A stretch of 64,000 nt of DNA from Silanimonas sp. (lineage in GTDB: Bacteria; Pseudomonadota; Gammaproteobacteria; Xanthomonadales; Xanthomonadaceae): assembly GCF_027530345.1 (NCBI RefSeq), contig NZ_JAPZQK010000022.1, forward strand, positions 62,001-126,000. The letters run 5' to 3'. Below, piece after piece: positions 7,240-55,216 of this stretch; position 1 is the first letter of the stretch; each line of letters begins with the position of its first letter. The notes below the pieces were generated by a model. It ran no database searches, was not told the DNA's origin, and worked only from the letters and a program-made list of their open reading frames with translations. A program made the position numbers and the translations under genes.

Positions 7240-8547
7240 ATGCCCGACGGCACCGCGCTGCAGAGCCTGGCCGAACTGGACGCCCGGATGGTGCGGGCGA
7301 CGCGCCGCCTGCGCCTGTTGCAGGCGGTGAGCTGGAAACAGCGGGTGCAGCGCGAGTTCCTCGACCGCTGGCGCCGCGGCGTGCACCGGCTTCCCGAGCC
7401 CGACTACGTGGCCGAGGACCACGCAGAGGTCCGCGCCGAGCTGCGCGCGATCGCCCAGGCCTGCGACCCACACCAGCCCTTGGGGCTGTACATCCGCCGC
7501 ACGGCCGACAGCTGGCACACCGCCGCCCTGTTGCTCGAATCGGTCGGCACCGCGGCGGTCACCGACCATTCCATCCGCCTGTTCGGCCGTCCGGGCGACG
7601 CGCTGCCGGGTGGCACCGTGTCCGGCGTTGACGCGGCCATGCACTTCATCCGCATCGCCGACGAGCTCGATGCCGAGTTGCGGGCCGTCGACACCGACGA
7701 CGATGCCGTGGAGGCGCCGGTCGTCCGCGAGCGCCTGCAGCAGGACATGGACGGCTTCTTCGGGCCCGGCAAGGTCAGCGTCGAACTGGACGCCGACCTC
7801 ATCGCCAAGGCCGCGGCCGGCCCCACGCGCATCCGCCTGCGCACCGGGGCGGCCTTCAGCGAGTACGACATCCACCAGCTCCGCGAGCACGAGGCCTTCG
7901 TGCACACGCTGACGGCCCTCAACGGCCGGGAGCAGCCGCATTTCGCCTCGCTTTCGCGCACCTCGCCGCGGATCATCGCCACGCAGGAAGGCCTGGCGAC
8001 CTTCGCCGAGCTGATCACCGGGCATATCGATATCGAGCGCATGAAGCGCATCAGCCTGCGCATCCTCGCCATCGACATGGCCCTGCGCGGCGCCGATTTC
8101 ATCGACGTGTTCCGCTTCTTCCTCGACGCCGGCCAGCGCGAACCGGAGAGCTTCTCGTCCGCGGCCCGCGTGTTCCGCGGCGTGCCGGTGACGGGCGGCG
8201 CGGCCTTCACCAAGGATGGCGTCTACCTCGCCGGGCTCGTGCGCGTGCACACCTTCTTCCGCTGGTGCCTGCGGCAGAAGAAGCTGGCCCTGACGCACCG
8301 GCTGTTCGCCGGGAAGATGACCCTCGAGGACGTGTTCGACCTCGCGCCGGCCTTCGAGAGCGGGGCCATCGCCCCGCCGCACTACCTGCCGCCCTGGGCG
8401 AAGCGCGCCAACGGGCTGGCCGGGATCCTCGCCTTTTCGCTGTTCGCGAACACGATCCGGCTCGACAAGGTCGACATCGAGAACCTCGATGCGGTGCCGC
8501 GGCTGTTCGGCGCGGCGGCGTCGGAGCCGCGGGAGGCGGGGCGGTAG
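7240..8547 (+). CDS. DUF1704 / QEGLA-motif putative metallopeptidase
   Basis: Protein of 435 residues of the family annotated as 'flavohemoglobin expression-modulating QEGLA motif protein'. It has the zinc-type HExxxH motif (HEAFVH at 217-222) followed by TALNG, and the name-giving QEGLA at 249-253. As I recall, the eukaryotic relatives (MATCAP group) are tyrosine carboxypeptidases, so a peptidase role is plausible here, but the bacterial substrate is unknown. The start is supported by GAGGAGGG at 7226-7233. A TATGCT hexamer at 7205-7210 could be the -10 element. Downstream lies repeat element A. Confidence 0.85.
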   Translation: MPDGTALQSLAELDARMVRATRRLRLLQAVSWKQRVQREFLDRWRRGVHRLPEPDYVAEDHAEVRAELRAIAQACDPHQPLGLYIRRTADSWHTAALLLESVGTAAVTDHSIRLFGRPGDALPGGTVSGVDAAMHFIRIADELDAELRAVDTDDDAVEAPVVRERLQQDMDGFFGPGKVSVELDADLIAKAAAGPTRIRLRTGAAFSEYDIHQLREHEAFVHTLTALNGREQPHFASLSRTSPRIIATQEGLATFAELITGHIDIERMKRISLRILAIDMALRGADFIDVFRFFLDAGQREPESFSSAARVFRGVPVTGGAAFTKDGVYLAGLVRVHTFFRWCLRQKKLALTHRLFAGKMTLEDVFDLAPAFESGAIAPPHYLPPWAKRANGLAGILAFSLFANTIRLDKVDIENLDAVPRLFGAAASEPREAGR

Positions 8548-8590
8548 CGGACGTTGGCGAGCCTCGCCCAGCCAGTGCCAAGCCCGGGGT

Positions 8591-8742
8591 GCGAGGCTGG
8601 TCCGCCCCGTCGCCATCACAGCAAGAAACCCGGCTGTCCGGCCGAAGGGGTCATCCTGACCCTCGGCCGGATGGCGCATCCCTGCGCCACCGCTTCGCGG
8701 CGGGCGCCTGGTTGGCGCGTCGGGGCTCCTTATTCGCCTCGC
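8591..8742 (-). repeat. Repeat arm A1 (inverted orientation)
   Basis: Copy 1 of the 150-base unit, read leftward. It starts GCGAGGCGAATAAGGAGCCC (from 8742) and ends CCAGCCTCGC (8591). Internal hairpin 8637-8671: TCCGGCCGA pairs with TCGGCCGGA, an inner GGGTCA/TGACCC stem, and two unpaired bases that read CT on this strand. Confidence 0.85.
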
Positions 8743-8933
8743 ACCCCGGGCTTGGCACTGGCTGGGCGCGTTCCCTGCAAGTTCGCGGCACAGCGCCATG
8801 GGTGCCTCACGTAGCGAGGCTCCGCCCTGACTGAAGCCGCGAGGTGGGCGTGTGAGCCAGTTCCGTCCGCGTGTTCGCGCTGTACTGCGGGTTGTTGCAA
8901 GCGAGCTCGCGCACCAGCCGCAAGGGATTGTGA

Positions 8934-9085
8934 GCGAGGCGAATAAGGAGCCCCGGCGCGCTGTTGAGGCGCAAGCCCCGAAGGGGTCGCTCAGGATGAG
9001 CGATCGATCCGAGGGGCATGGATGCCCCCTTCGGATCGACCGCCGGCAACCTCGAGAGAGAGGTGACGGGGCGGGCCAGCCTCGC
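8934..9085 (+). repeat. Repeat arm A2
   Basis: Copy 2 of the unit. It starts GCGAGGCGAATAAGGAGCCC and ends GGGCGGGCCAGCCTCGC. Internal hairpin 9005-9038: CGATCCGA pairs with TCGGATCG, an inner GGGGCAT/ATGCCCC stem, loop GG, and an unpaired CT at 9029-9030. CCGCCGG follows the stem. Confidence 0.85.
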
Positions 9086-9206
9086 TTCCAATCCCTTGGG
9101 GCGAAGCGCGTTGGGTGCTGTAGTCCATCCCGGCACCGGAGCTGGCCTTGCGATGAGCCGCCATGCGCCCATACGCCGCCGTCCGCTGCCGTCACGAAGC
9201 CGTGGC

Positions 9207-35600: not shown

Positions 35601-35644
35601 GCAGAGCCGCTGCGAGCGCTCGCGCACGGTGCCACGGCCGGCAT

Positions 35645-35794
35645 GCGAGGCTGGCCCGCCCCGTCACCTTCCCGATGGTCTGCCCGGCGGCCCGCTCGAA
35701 GGGTACGTCCGTGTACCTCGAGCGGCGGCGCATCCATGCGCCGCCCTCCGGGCTATCGCCTGGGCACCGCGTCGGGGCTCCTTATTCGCCTCGC
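35645..35794 (-). repeat. Repeat arm B1 (inverted orientation)
   Basis: Copy 3 of the unit, read leftward. Hairpin 35692-35725: CCGCTCGA pairs with TCGAGCGG, inner stem GGTAC/GTACC, and two unpaired bases reading CT on this strand. It also has a GGCGCATGGATGCGCC hairpin (about 35727-35742), matching GGCGCAGGGATGCGCC in arm A1. Confidence 0.85.
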
Positions 35795-35933
35795 ATGCCG
35801 GTCGTGGCGCTGGCGCGGCGCTCCACCACCCACTCCGCGACCCCTAGCACGTGCAAGCAACTCGCGAGATGGCTGACGTGTCGCAAGCCTTCAAACTTGC
35901 GGAGAACTCGCGACCTTGCGCGGAGCGGCCCGC

Positions 35934-36084
35934 GTGCGGCGAATCAGGAGCCCCGGCGCGCTGTTGAGGGGCAAGCCCCGAAGGGGTCGCGCAGGGATGC
36001 GCGATCGGCTCAAGGGGCAGGAGCCCCCTTTGGGCCGACCGCCGGAAATCTCGCCGAGAAGGTCATGGGGCGGGCCAGCCTCGC
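35934..36084 (+). repeat. Repeat arm B2
   Basis: Copy 4 of the unit. GCGAATCAGGAGCCCCGGCG block at its start, GGGCGGGCCAGCCTCGC at its end. Hairpin 36005-36038: TCGGCTCAA pairs with TTGGGCCGA, inner GGGGC/GCCCC, loop AGGA, and an unpaired CT at 36028-36029. CCGCCGG follows. Confidence 0.85.
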
Positions 36085-36202
36085 GCCGCTGGCTTTGCGC
36101 GTGGACTCTGCGGGCTTTCCTCGCGCGGCTCGCATGCGGCTGCATGGTAAATTCCGCAACACAGCGCGACCTTCGTCGCGCGGATGTCCCGGCCTGATCC
36201 CG

Positions 36203-53968: not shown

Positions 53969-55216
53969 TCAGCGGCCGGCGGCGGCGTTGACCACCACGC
54001 GCGCACCGTCGGCGAGGCCCTTCGGCGGCGCGACGATCACCGCCTCGCCACCGTTGAGGCCGGCAGTGACGTGGCGTTCGGCGTTCGCTTCCTCGCCCAG
54101 CGTCACCTCGATGCGCTTCGCCACGCCATCTTCGACCACGAACACGGCGGGACGGCCGGGCTCCTCGCCTTCCGCGGCGGGCGCGGGCTGCACGATGGCG
54201 GCCTCCGGCACGAAGGCGCCGGTGGGCTTCGGCGCATCGGCATCGACCGGAGCGAGGAAGCTCACGCGCACGCCCATGTCGGGGACGATGCGCGGGTCCT
54301 TGCTGTCGAGCGCGATGCGCACCTTCACCGTGGCCTTGGTGCGGTCGGCGGTGGGCACGATGGCGATCACGCTGCCCGGGATCGTCCAGTCCGGGTAGGC
54401 GTTGAGCACGGCGTTCACCACCATCTTCGGCTGCACGCGGCCGATGTAGGCCTCGTTGACGTCGACGTTCACTTCCAGCGAATCCATGTCGACCAGCGTG
54501 CCGATGCCGGTGCGGGTGAAGCCGCCGCCGGCCGAGACCGGCGAGATCATCTCGCCCGGCTGCGCGGCCTTGGCCACGATCACGCCGGCGAAGGGGGCGC
54601 GGATCTGCGTGTTGTCCACGCCGATGGCGGTGAGCGCCCGCTGGTCGCGGGCAACTTCGACGGCTTTCTCCAGGCTGGCGAGGCGCGCCGCGCGGGCGTC
54701 GCGGTCGGCCTTGGCCTGGTCGAACGCCGACTGCGCGACCAGCTGGCGGCCGATCAGCTCCTGCTGGCGCTTCAGCGTGGTCTCGGCCAAGGCGAGCTGC
54801 GTGCGCGCTTCGGCAAGCTGCGATTCGCTCGATGCCTGCTGCGCGCTGGCGAGCTCGAGCTGGGCGCTGGCGTCGGTGGCGTCGAGGCGGGCCAGCAGCT
54901 GGCCTTCCTCAACCTTCATGCCTTCCTCGATCAACACTTCGGCCACGCGGCCGGTGACCTTCGAGGAGACCGTGGCGATGCGCCGGGCGGTGACGAAGCC
55001 GGAGGCGTCGAGCAGGGTGGGCGGGCCGGCGTCGGCCGCGCTGCGCGCGACCGAGGTGTCGACGGGCGTCGGCCGGCCAGACATCAGCACCGCGCCGACG
55101 GCGACCACCGTGACGATCGCGCCGAGCACGATCCACTTGCGGTTCGAGGTCGGGCGCGCGGCGCCGGGACGGCGGTCGATGCGCAGGTCGCGCAGGTGGT
55201 CTTCGGGACGGCTCAT
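53969..55216 (-). CDS. Periplasmic adaptor (HlyD/MacA type) of efflux pump
   Basis: 415-residue membrane-fusion protein: cytoplasmic tail, one helix (WIVLGAIVTVVAVGAVLMS), a barrel/lipoyl half (TVSSKVTGRVAEVLIEEGMK), an alpha-helical hairpin (about 115-190) and the second lipoyl half (IRAPFAGVIVAKAAQPGEMI), then beta domains. It should link the ABC permeases to an outer-membrane channel, no gene for which is in the window. First gene of the leftward operon; a palindrome at 55296-55311 lies upstream. Confidence 0.92.
   Translation of the reverse strand: MSRPEDHLRDLRIDRRPGAARPTSNRKWIVLGAIVTVVAVGAVLMSGRPTPVDTSVARSAADAGPPTLLDASGFVTARRIATVSSKVTGRVAEVLIEEGMKVEEGQLLARLDATDASAQLELASAQQASSESQLAEARTQLALAETTLKRQQELIGRQLVAQSAFDQAKADRDARAARLASLEKAVEVARDQRALTAIGVDNTQIRAPFAGVIVAKAAQPGEMISPVSAGGGFTRTGIGTLVDMDSLEVNVDVNEAYIGRVQPKMVVNAVLNAYPDWTIPGSVIAIVPTADRTKATVKVRIALDSKDPRIVPDMGVRVSFLAPVDADAPKPTGAFVPEAAIVQPAPAAEGEEPGRPAVFVVEDGVAKRIEVTLGEEANAERHVTAGLNGGEAVIVAPPKGLADGARVVVNAAAGR

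Follow-up and report, generated by a model that had tools for sequence, protein, structure and literature searches.

The window analysed here, a 64,000-nucleotide stretch of a Silanimonas sp. genome (contig NZ_JAPZQK010000022.1, positions 62,001 to 126,000), carries two copies of a paired repeat, each an inverted pair of arms lying between genes. Element 1 has a MATCAP-family gene on one side and a malic enzyme/PTA gene on the other, and element 2 lies between an FtsW/RodA-family gene and an SLT_2 transglycosylase gene that is followed by a DPBB/SPOR gene (Table 1). The MATCAP family member (PF08014) occupies 7240-8547, directly upstream of element 1. A sequence-only reading of the window had pointed to one hairpin in each of the four arms that keeps its shape while its sequence changes. 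We found all four hairpins at the places that were claimed. All consist of a lower stem (8-9 bp), a CT offset of 2 bases on the 3' side, an upper stem (5-6 bp) and a short loop, with a form of CCGCCGG following.

Table 1. Coordinates of the two elements and of their parts in the window (H2b and H2c are hairpins of the arm core)
Feature	Position	Strand	Remark
Element 1, inverted arm pair (B on -, A on +)	8565..9102	.	between MATCAP-family and malic enzyme/PTA genes
Element 1 arm B core	8587..8746	-	model R1, 155.9 bits (model partly built from the arm itself)
Element 1 arm B outer stem, one half	8565..8597	-	33/33 complementary to 8736..8768
Element 1 arm B outer stem, other half	8736..8768	-	33/33 complementary to 8565..8597
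Element 1 arm B flagged hairpin H2c, loop AGGAT	8637..8671	-
Element 1 arm B second GGA-loop hairpin H2b	8670..8691	-
Element 1 spacer	8769..8916	.
Element 1 arm A core	8930..9089	+	model R1, 158.8 bits (model partly built from the arm itself)
Element 1 arm A outer stem, 5' half	8917..8940	+
Element 1 arm A outer stem, 3' half	9079..9102	+
Element 1 arm A GGA-loop hairpin H2b	8985..9005	+
Element 1 arm A flagged hairpin H2c, loop ATGGAT	9005..9038	+
Element 2, inverted arm pair	35631..36104	.	between FtsW/RodA-family and SLT_2 transglycosylase genes
Element 2 arm B core	35641..35798	-	model R1, 140.2 bits (model partly built from the arm itself)
Element 2 arm B outer stem, one half	35631..35651	-
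Element 2 arm B outer stem, other half	35788..35808	-
Element 2 arm B flagged hairpin H2c	35692..35725	-
Element 2 arm B GGA-loop hairpin H2b	35724..35745	-
Element 2 arm A core	35930..36088	+	model R1, 130.6 bits (model partly built from the arm itself)
Element 2 arm A imperfect outer stem, 5' half	35914..35937	+	14 Watson-Crick, 5 G-T, 5 other of 24
Element 2 arm A imperfect outer stem, 3' half	36081..36104	+
Element 2 arm A GGA-loop hairpin H2b	35985..36006	+
Element 2 arm A flagged hairpin H2c	36005..36038	+

The core of an arm, about 145 nt long (141-146 nt), has three hairpins, of which the flagged one (H2c) is the largest. Beyond what had been described earlier, the arms have a closing stem each, two further hairpins and GGA loops. 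The layout of an arm comprises an outer stem, an internal loop, a stem GCCCC/GGGGC, a stem GGCG/CGCC and the hairpins H2a, H2b and H2c. Among 32 aligned arms the internal loop is most commonly GAATAAGGA on its 5' side (11 arms) and GGGCCA on its 3' side (14 arms), and the loop of H2a is mostly GAA, GCA or GGA. The CCGCCGG form pairs in most arms with an upstream GGCG (helix 3 of the alignment). Two pairs of the stem GCCCC/GGGGC are switched from C-G to G-C in G002, one of the other Silanimonas genomes (G001-G007). A further match of model R1 in the window, at 54790-54905 (16.7 bits, E-value 0.29), was taken as chance.

The 32 aligned arms consist of 24 from the source genome (G000; 3.37 Mb, 68 contigs) and G003, a related metagenome-assembled genome (MAG), together with eight arms of a diverged form from G002. 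Those 24 rows remain from 26 extracted arms after removal of the arm from G007 and of a G003 orthologue that was nearly identical. The G002 rows are eight of 17 extracted copies, in a genome that has 58 matches in all and in which three of 20 loci gave no anchor. The G003 arm C70:55415 belongs to neither this nor the wider alignment described below, and it is included in the comparisons of arm identity and of outer stems. For both alignments, the structure was derived from the same sequences on which it was tested, and the rows are related.

Across the 49-pair structure, 91.8 % of 1535 cells pair. Both sides change in 30 of the 49 pairs compared to a shuffled mean of 24.1, the cells with a change on both sides number 246 compared to 81.3, and the covariation score is 0.428 compared to 0.141. 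Four of the five covariation measures, these three among them, were reached by none of 500 shuffles. The fifth measure is weak, with 65 further pair types compared to 62.0 in the shuffles (reached by 93 of 500). When the 3' partners are slid by 1-3 columns, pairing over the whole structure drops from 91.8 % to 34-47 %, and the slid structures have at most 13 both-side pairs and a score of at most 0.098. The flagged hairpin alone (14 pairs) has 92.5 % of its cells paired and changes on both sides in nine pairs. A wider alignment of 21 rows (18 distinct), with two further genera added, gives a score of 0.49 compared to 0.14 in shuffles and 15 both-side pairs compared to 11.9 (reached by 8 of 500 shuffles); its further pair types are not above the shuffles (353 of 500 reach). 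The strong covariation in both sets supports the earlier proposal that selection maintains the structure of the hairpin, as RNA or as single-stranded DNA: the larger set does covary and the stems are not broken in most copies. We conclude that the arm structure is well supported.

The sequence data fit RNA and single-stranded DNA alike as the folded molecule. The base changes point weakly to the sense strand as the one that folds: G-T pairs outnumber A-C mismatches by 72:30 in the main alignment, by 34:22 when one nearly constant pair and four uncertain helix 3 pairs are removed, and by 25:11 in the outer stems. The folding energy of the core (145-147 nt, without the outer stem) has z values of -3.6, -3.9, -3.3 and -1.5 for the four window arms and of -3.7, -3.8, -3.2 and -1.1 for the complementary strands. 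With a z of -1.5, the arm at 35937-36082 is thus not exceptional by energy. In the one arm tested with its outer stem included (8563-8770 on the minus strand), z reaches -13.4.

At 13 of 17 sites (8 of 9 in G000, 5 of 8 in G003), a stop codon lies no more than 65 nt from the edge of the element, given here as a raw count. Genes were called by a GC3 rule, edges were set by hand, and 17 of 19 sites were surveyed, with the G003 orthologues a3 and g3 left out. One explanation for the nearby stop codons, for the very stable fold with its outer stem and for two strands that fold about equally well is a BIME-like element of the 3' untranslated region (3'-UTR), in which a very stable hairpin blocks exonucleases or read-through and has no dedicated protein partner. 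The terminator-like matches (two in element 1 and one in element 2, compared to 0.3 and 0.2 in shuffles) speak against this explanation, being placed inside the arms and not at the arm ends. It would also leave unexplained the presence of GGA in both loops of 32 arms whose stems turn over, and we consider it unlikely.

The loops of both H2b and H2c contain GGA in every aligned arm (64 of 64 loops), and so do both loops of the rows from two other genera. Majority identity averages 77 % in the H2c stems and 59 % in the outer stem, while GGA is constant. For CsrA binding, a finer consensus than GGA alone is part of the background. One study describes the motifs bound by CsrA as hairpins that have GGA in their loop and generally occur in pairs (PMC4333381). 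Several GGA-loop hairpins characterise the small RNAs that sequester RsmA/CsrA, and two such hairpins are present in each of the 32 aligned arms.

The arms are arranged in inverted pairs. In G000 and G003 we found seven inverted pairs of A/B-type arms, and at seven further sites seemingly single arms have a partner of type C (GCCATGGATGGC and GGGGCAGGACAGCCCC hairpins), one of which is a remnant. Type C arms have two GGA-loop hairpins of their own (L203:5330-5485, L212:9382-9501, L210:9349-9468 and others). The 14 pairs recognised in these two genomes are all divergent, and arms a, g and j of G000 and l3 and e3 of G003 have no recognised partner. In nine genomes of other genera, taken from the 98 that a three-hairpin model matches (see below), close neighbours among the matches listed are convergent in 15 of 15 cases, in eight of the nine genomes. 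Some G002 copies lie on one strand at distances of about 500 bp from each other, and inspection by eye of one such unit showed a C-like trace on the opposite strand. We dropped the idea that pairs prefer unlike arms (mean identity 0.785 compared to 0.807, P 0.10). The spacer of element 1 has no second match in its own genome at an E-value of 0.001.

The sites themselves differ between relatives, in flanks that are mostly 90-96 % identical between G000 and G003. G004, G006 and G007 lack element 1 at its site, where the matches to its two flanks are separated by 17, 7 and 49 bp, respectively. G003 has no copy at the place of element 2, with 19 bp separating the flank matches, site (b) is empty in G000, and site (h) (G000:C68:165) is empty in G003, with a 10-bp target duplication, CGCTGAGCCG, around the G000 copy. 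In G007 the flanks of element 2 are about 3.5 kb apart (G007:C303:5687-9237, L219). Four sites common to G000 and G003 have identical core stretches of 74-160 nt. The B cores of G000 and G003 at site (c) are 91 % alike and identical over a stretch of 106 nt, but stand in different stems, and the A arm in G003 is of another sort (77 % alike). The A arm of site (e) is absent in G003, and the arms at the same place in sites (f) and (i) are 74-79 % alike. We regard the mobility of the repeat as moderately supported.

Inverted pairing with these fixed orientations, presence and absence between relatives, a target duplication and a copy number that ranges from 0 to 77 across the 13 genomes searched would also fit hairpins that act as DNA. 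The inverted arms would then be the ends of a non-autonomous transposable element, and a transposase would read the single-stranded hairpins as in REP/TnpA-REP or IS200/IS605. The Y1_Tnp domain (PF01797) was found in none of eight Silanimonas genomes, G002 included (drafts, 77-100 % complete), which counts against this explanation and would leave the task to another enzyme. A 10-bp duplication does not fit IS200/IS605, and the 74-160 nt of identical core at four shared sites are more than a mere leftover of insertion needs. We hold a DNA function to be rather improbable, and keep it under consideration mainly because the inverted pairing and the insertion are real. Integron attC sites also keep shape over sequence, which is the sole reason they were considered.

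The outer stems show a different behaviour from the core. An outer stem of 8-41 bp extends beyond the core in 25 of 26 arms, arm j being the one without, and its sequence is unlike that of other copies except for the orthologues at sites (a) and (g). We scored each stem half against its own partner (mean of 18.0 for 26 arms) and against the halves of other arms (mean of 2.9, maximum 17, n = 616). Arm j is the exception with an own-partner score of 1, so 458 of the 616 mismatched pairings reach the lowest observed score; the next shortest stems are 8 and 9 bp. The stem of element 1 arm B (8565-8768) is perfect in G000, and the same site in G003 has an imperfect 32-bp stem (26 Watson-Crick pairs) with much of the sequence changed. 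At this site, which is site (c), the right stem half, on which the comparison rests, is 8/20 identical next to the 106-nt core stretch. At the orthologous site (e), both halves are 10/20 identical and the identical core stretch is 84 nt. Window arm s1A (element 1 arm A) and G003 arm j3, which are at different loci, have cores that are 96 % alike and half-stems with 10 and 9 of 20 positions identical.

It is conceivable that mutation and not selection keeps the outer stems complementary, with template switching at palindromes copying one half onto the other and so giving perfect stems whatever their sequence. The same core in different stems at sites (c) and (e), and in s1A and j3, would fit such rewriting. 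Against it, core and stem are both conserved at sites (a) and (g), where the stem halves are identical at 19 and 20 of 20 positions per side, and the inner hairpins covary too while template switching concerns the outer stem only. We therefore consider it very unlikely. Insertion of the core into a pre-existing palindrome was rejected for the copy at site (h) only, where the target duplications enclose both halves of the stem, neither of which is present at the empty site. Cores and outer stems seem to behave as separate modules. Outer stems that differ between close relatives at one site yet pair are a test of palindrome rewriting versus selection.

The closest known family is TwoAYGGAY of Rfam (RF01731, clan CL00106). 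The window contains no TwoAYGGAY match at the gathering cut-off (43 bits), nor around both elements at E-values up to 3. Two of seven loci of one set match at 34.7 and 34.4 bits, and two of 11 loci of a second set at 46.8 bits (L222, above the cut-off) and 39.6 bits, and all four come from the genus g15. No known Rsm/Csr model matches the window at its cut-off, and the best sub-threshold Rfam match around element 1 is RsmW of the same clan, on arm B (27.5 bits, E-value 0.014, cut-off 52). With the window copies below every Rfam cut-off, they resemble TwoAYGGAY and are not filed as members. The available text of the study that covers TwoAYGGAY proposes on motif grounds that it binds CsrA (PMC4333381). 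In the available parts of the open-licence literature we found no tested function for TwoAYGGAY, and the titles and abstract openings of open-licence papers on the subject do not name the repeats.

The repeat differs from TwoAYGGAY in having an extra third hairpin, an internal loop, inverted pairing and dispersed copies, and in loops that are mostly not exact AYGGAY. It shares several GGA-loop hairpins with RsmX/Y/Z, RsmW and CsrB/C and differs from them in scoring below their cut-offs, in its many copies and in having no promoter-like match. RsmU of Xanthomonas, a genus of the same family as Silanimonas, is likewise found at a gene 3' end and has GGA motifs. The available text describes RsmU as processed from a 3'-UTR, as binding RsmA and as conserved in Xanthomonas only, and does not describe it as a repeat, a comparison made by description (PMC7694677). 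REP/BIME elements are also dispersed extragenic palindromes in alternating orientation, whereas the arms here are about 145 nt and not 20-40 bp. The repeat is TwoAYGGAY-like, and BIME-like in arrangement, and is a filed member of neither family.

At an E-value of 0.01, G000 and G003 have 13 arms each, G002 has its 58 matches of the diverged form, G007 (77 % complete) has one, and G001, G004, G005 (83 % complete) and G006 have none. G002 copies lie within the first 600 bases of contigs C6, C7, C11, C14, C20, C23, C25, C29, C33, C34 and C40; the repeat may thus break the assembly, which makes the count of 58 uncertain. The full model matches seven of 395 genomes of the family (E-value 1e-4, stricter filters). 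With relaxed filters it gives 77 and 71 matches in two g15 genomes, nearly all of which cover positions 44-111 among the matches listed. A 71-position model that covers the three hairpins, built on sequences of Silanimonas and of two more genera, matches 98 of 398 genomes of the order, in 32 of 98 genera, with at most 12 candidates scored per genome. In other genera (L188:1350-2250, L152, L225-L229, L231, L232), a T-rich palindrome TTTGGTTACTTT...AAAGTGACC or similar lies 3' of the GGA hairpins, and L188 has a CGTCATTCC-type palindrome near this region. A phage or plasmid origin was rejected, with no match in two collections and the exact pattern in 0 viral contigs. A 59-base piece of L231 is also present in Burkholderia records of the plasmid collection.

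We tentatively favour, at somewhat short of an even chance, a mobile repeat of paired arms whose RNA would present GGA hairpins to RsmA/CsrA. The element would be a dispersed, mobile, non-coding repeat of two inverted arms of about 145 nt around a spacer, in most cases following closely on a stop codon. Transcription of the neighbouring gene would yield, from the sense-oriented arm, a closed multibranch RNA in which two hairpins show GGA in their loops. The likeliest partner would be the dimeric regulator RsmA/CsrA, whose gene is present in the genome, and the two GGA hairpins of an arm would match a single dimer. Such an element may work as a binding site or sponge in the 3'-UTR, perhaps shielding the mRNA end. 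In favour of this interpretation we count the covariation, GGA in every aligned H2b and H2c loop, the better fit of outer-stem halves to their own partners, the matches to clan CL00106 (TwoAYGGAY and RsmW), RsmU in the same bacterial family, a CsrA gene in 12 of 13 genomes, the nearby stop codons and, for mobility, the empty sites in relatives and the 10-bp duplication. The covarying structure, the GGA loops, the inverted pairing, the position by stop codons, the presence or absence between relatives and the one target duplication are shown, and transcription, RsmA binding and an effect on the mRNA are inferred.

Several observations weigh against the RsmA/CsrA interpretation. A promoter inside the elements was dropped, as no promoter-like match was found in element 1 (spacer included) or in element 2. 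The exact AYGGAY sequence is present in a minority of loops, 12 of 64, and in the eight aligned G002 rows the first loop is without the A before GGA. The best Rfam near-misses around element 2 are unrelated families, with rsmX at 15.2 bits (E-value 2.5, cut-off 56). A CsrA gene is found in 12 of the 13 genomes searched, the source genome included; as four Silanimonas genomes without a repeat match have it as well, co-occurrence tests nothing. An RNA-only model offers no obvious reason for the strict inverted pairing, a stop codon is likely to be near by where intergenic regions are short, and the duplication at site (h) is the only clear one, none being recognised by eye at sites (b) and (d). 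According to the available text on RsmU, RsmA still bound efficiently, in a complex that ran lower, and the phenotype persisted after all four predicted GGA motifs had been changed (PMC7694677).

Many genomes of the order contain GGA-hairpin structures of the TwoAYGGAY-like kind as dispersed repeats, and the aligned set is usable for structure work. If the arms bind RsmA, such repeats would be a route to rewire post-transcriptional control. We further hypothesize, as a speculative extension of the RsmA/CsrA interpretation that is on the whole doubtful, that this is a selfish dispersed RNA repeat spreading RsmA/CsrA binding sites behind genes. If so, copy number would set the free RsmA of a lineage, host genes would come under Rsm control, and the conserved core would evolve as one module and the outer stem, freely rewritten, as another.
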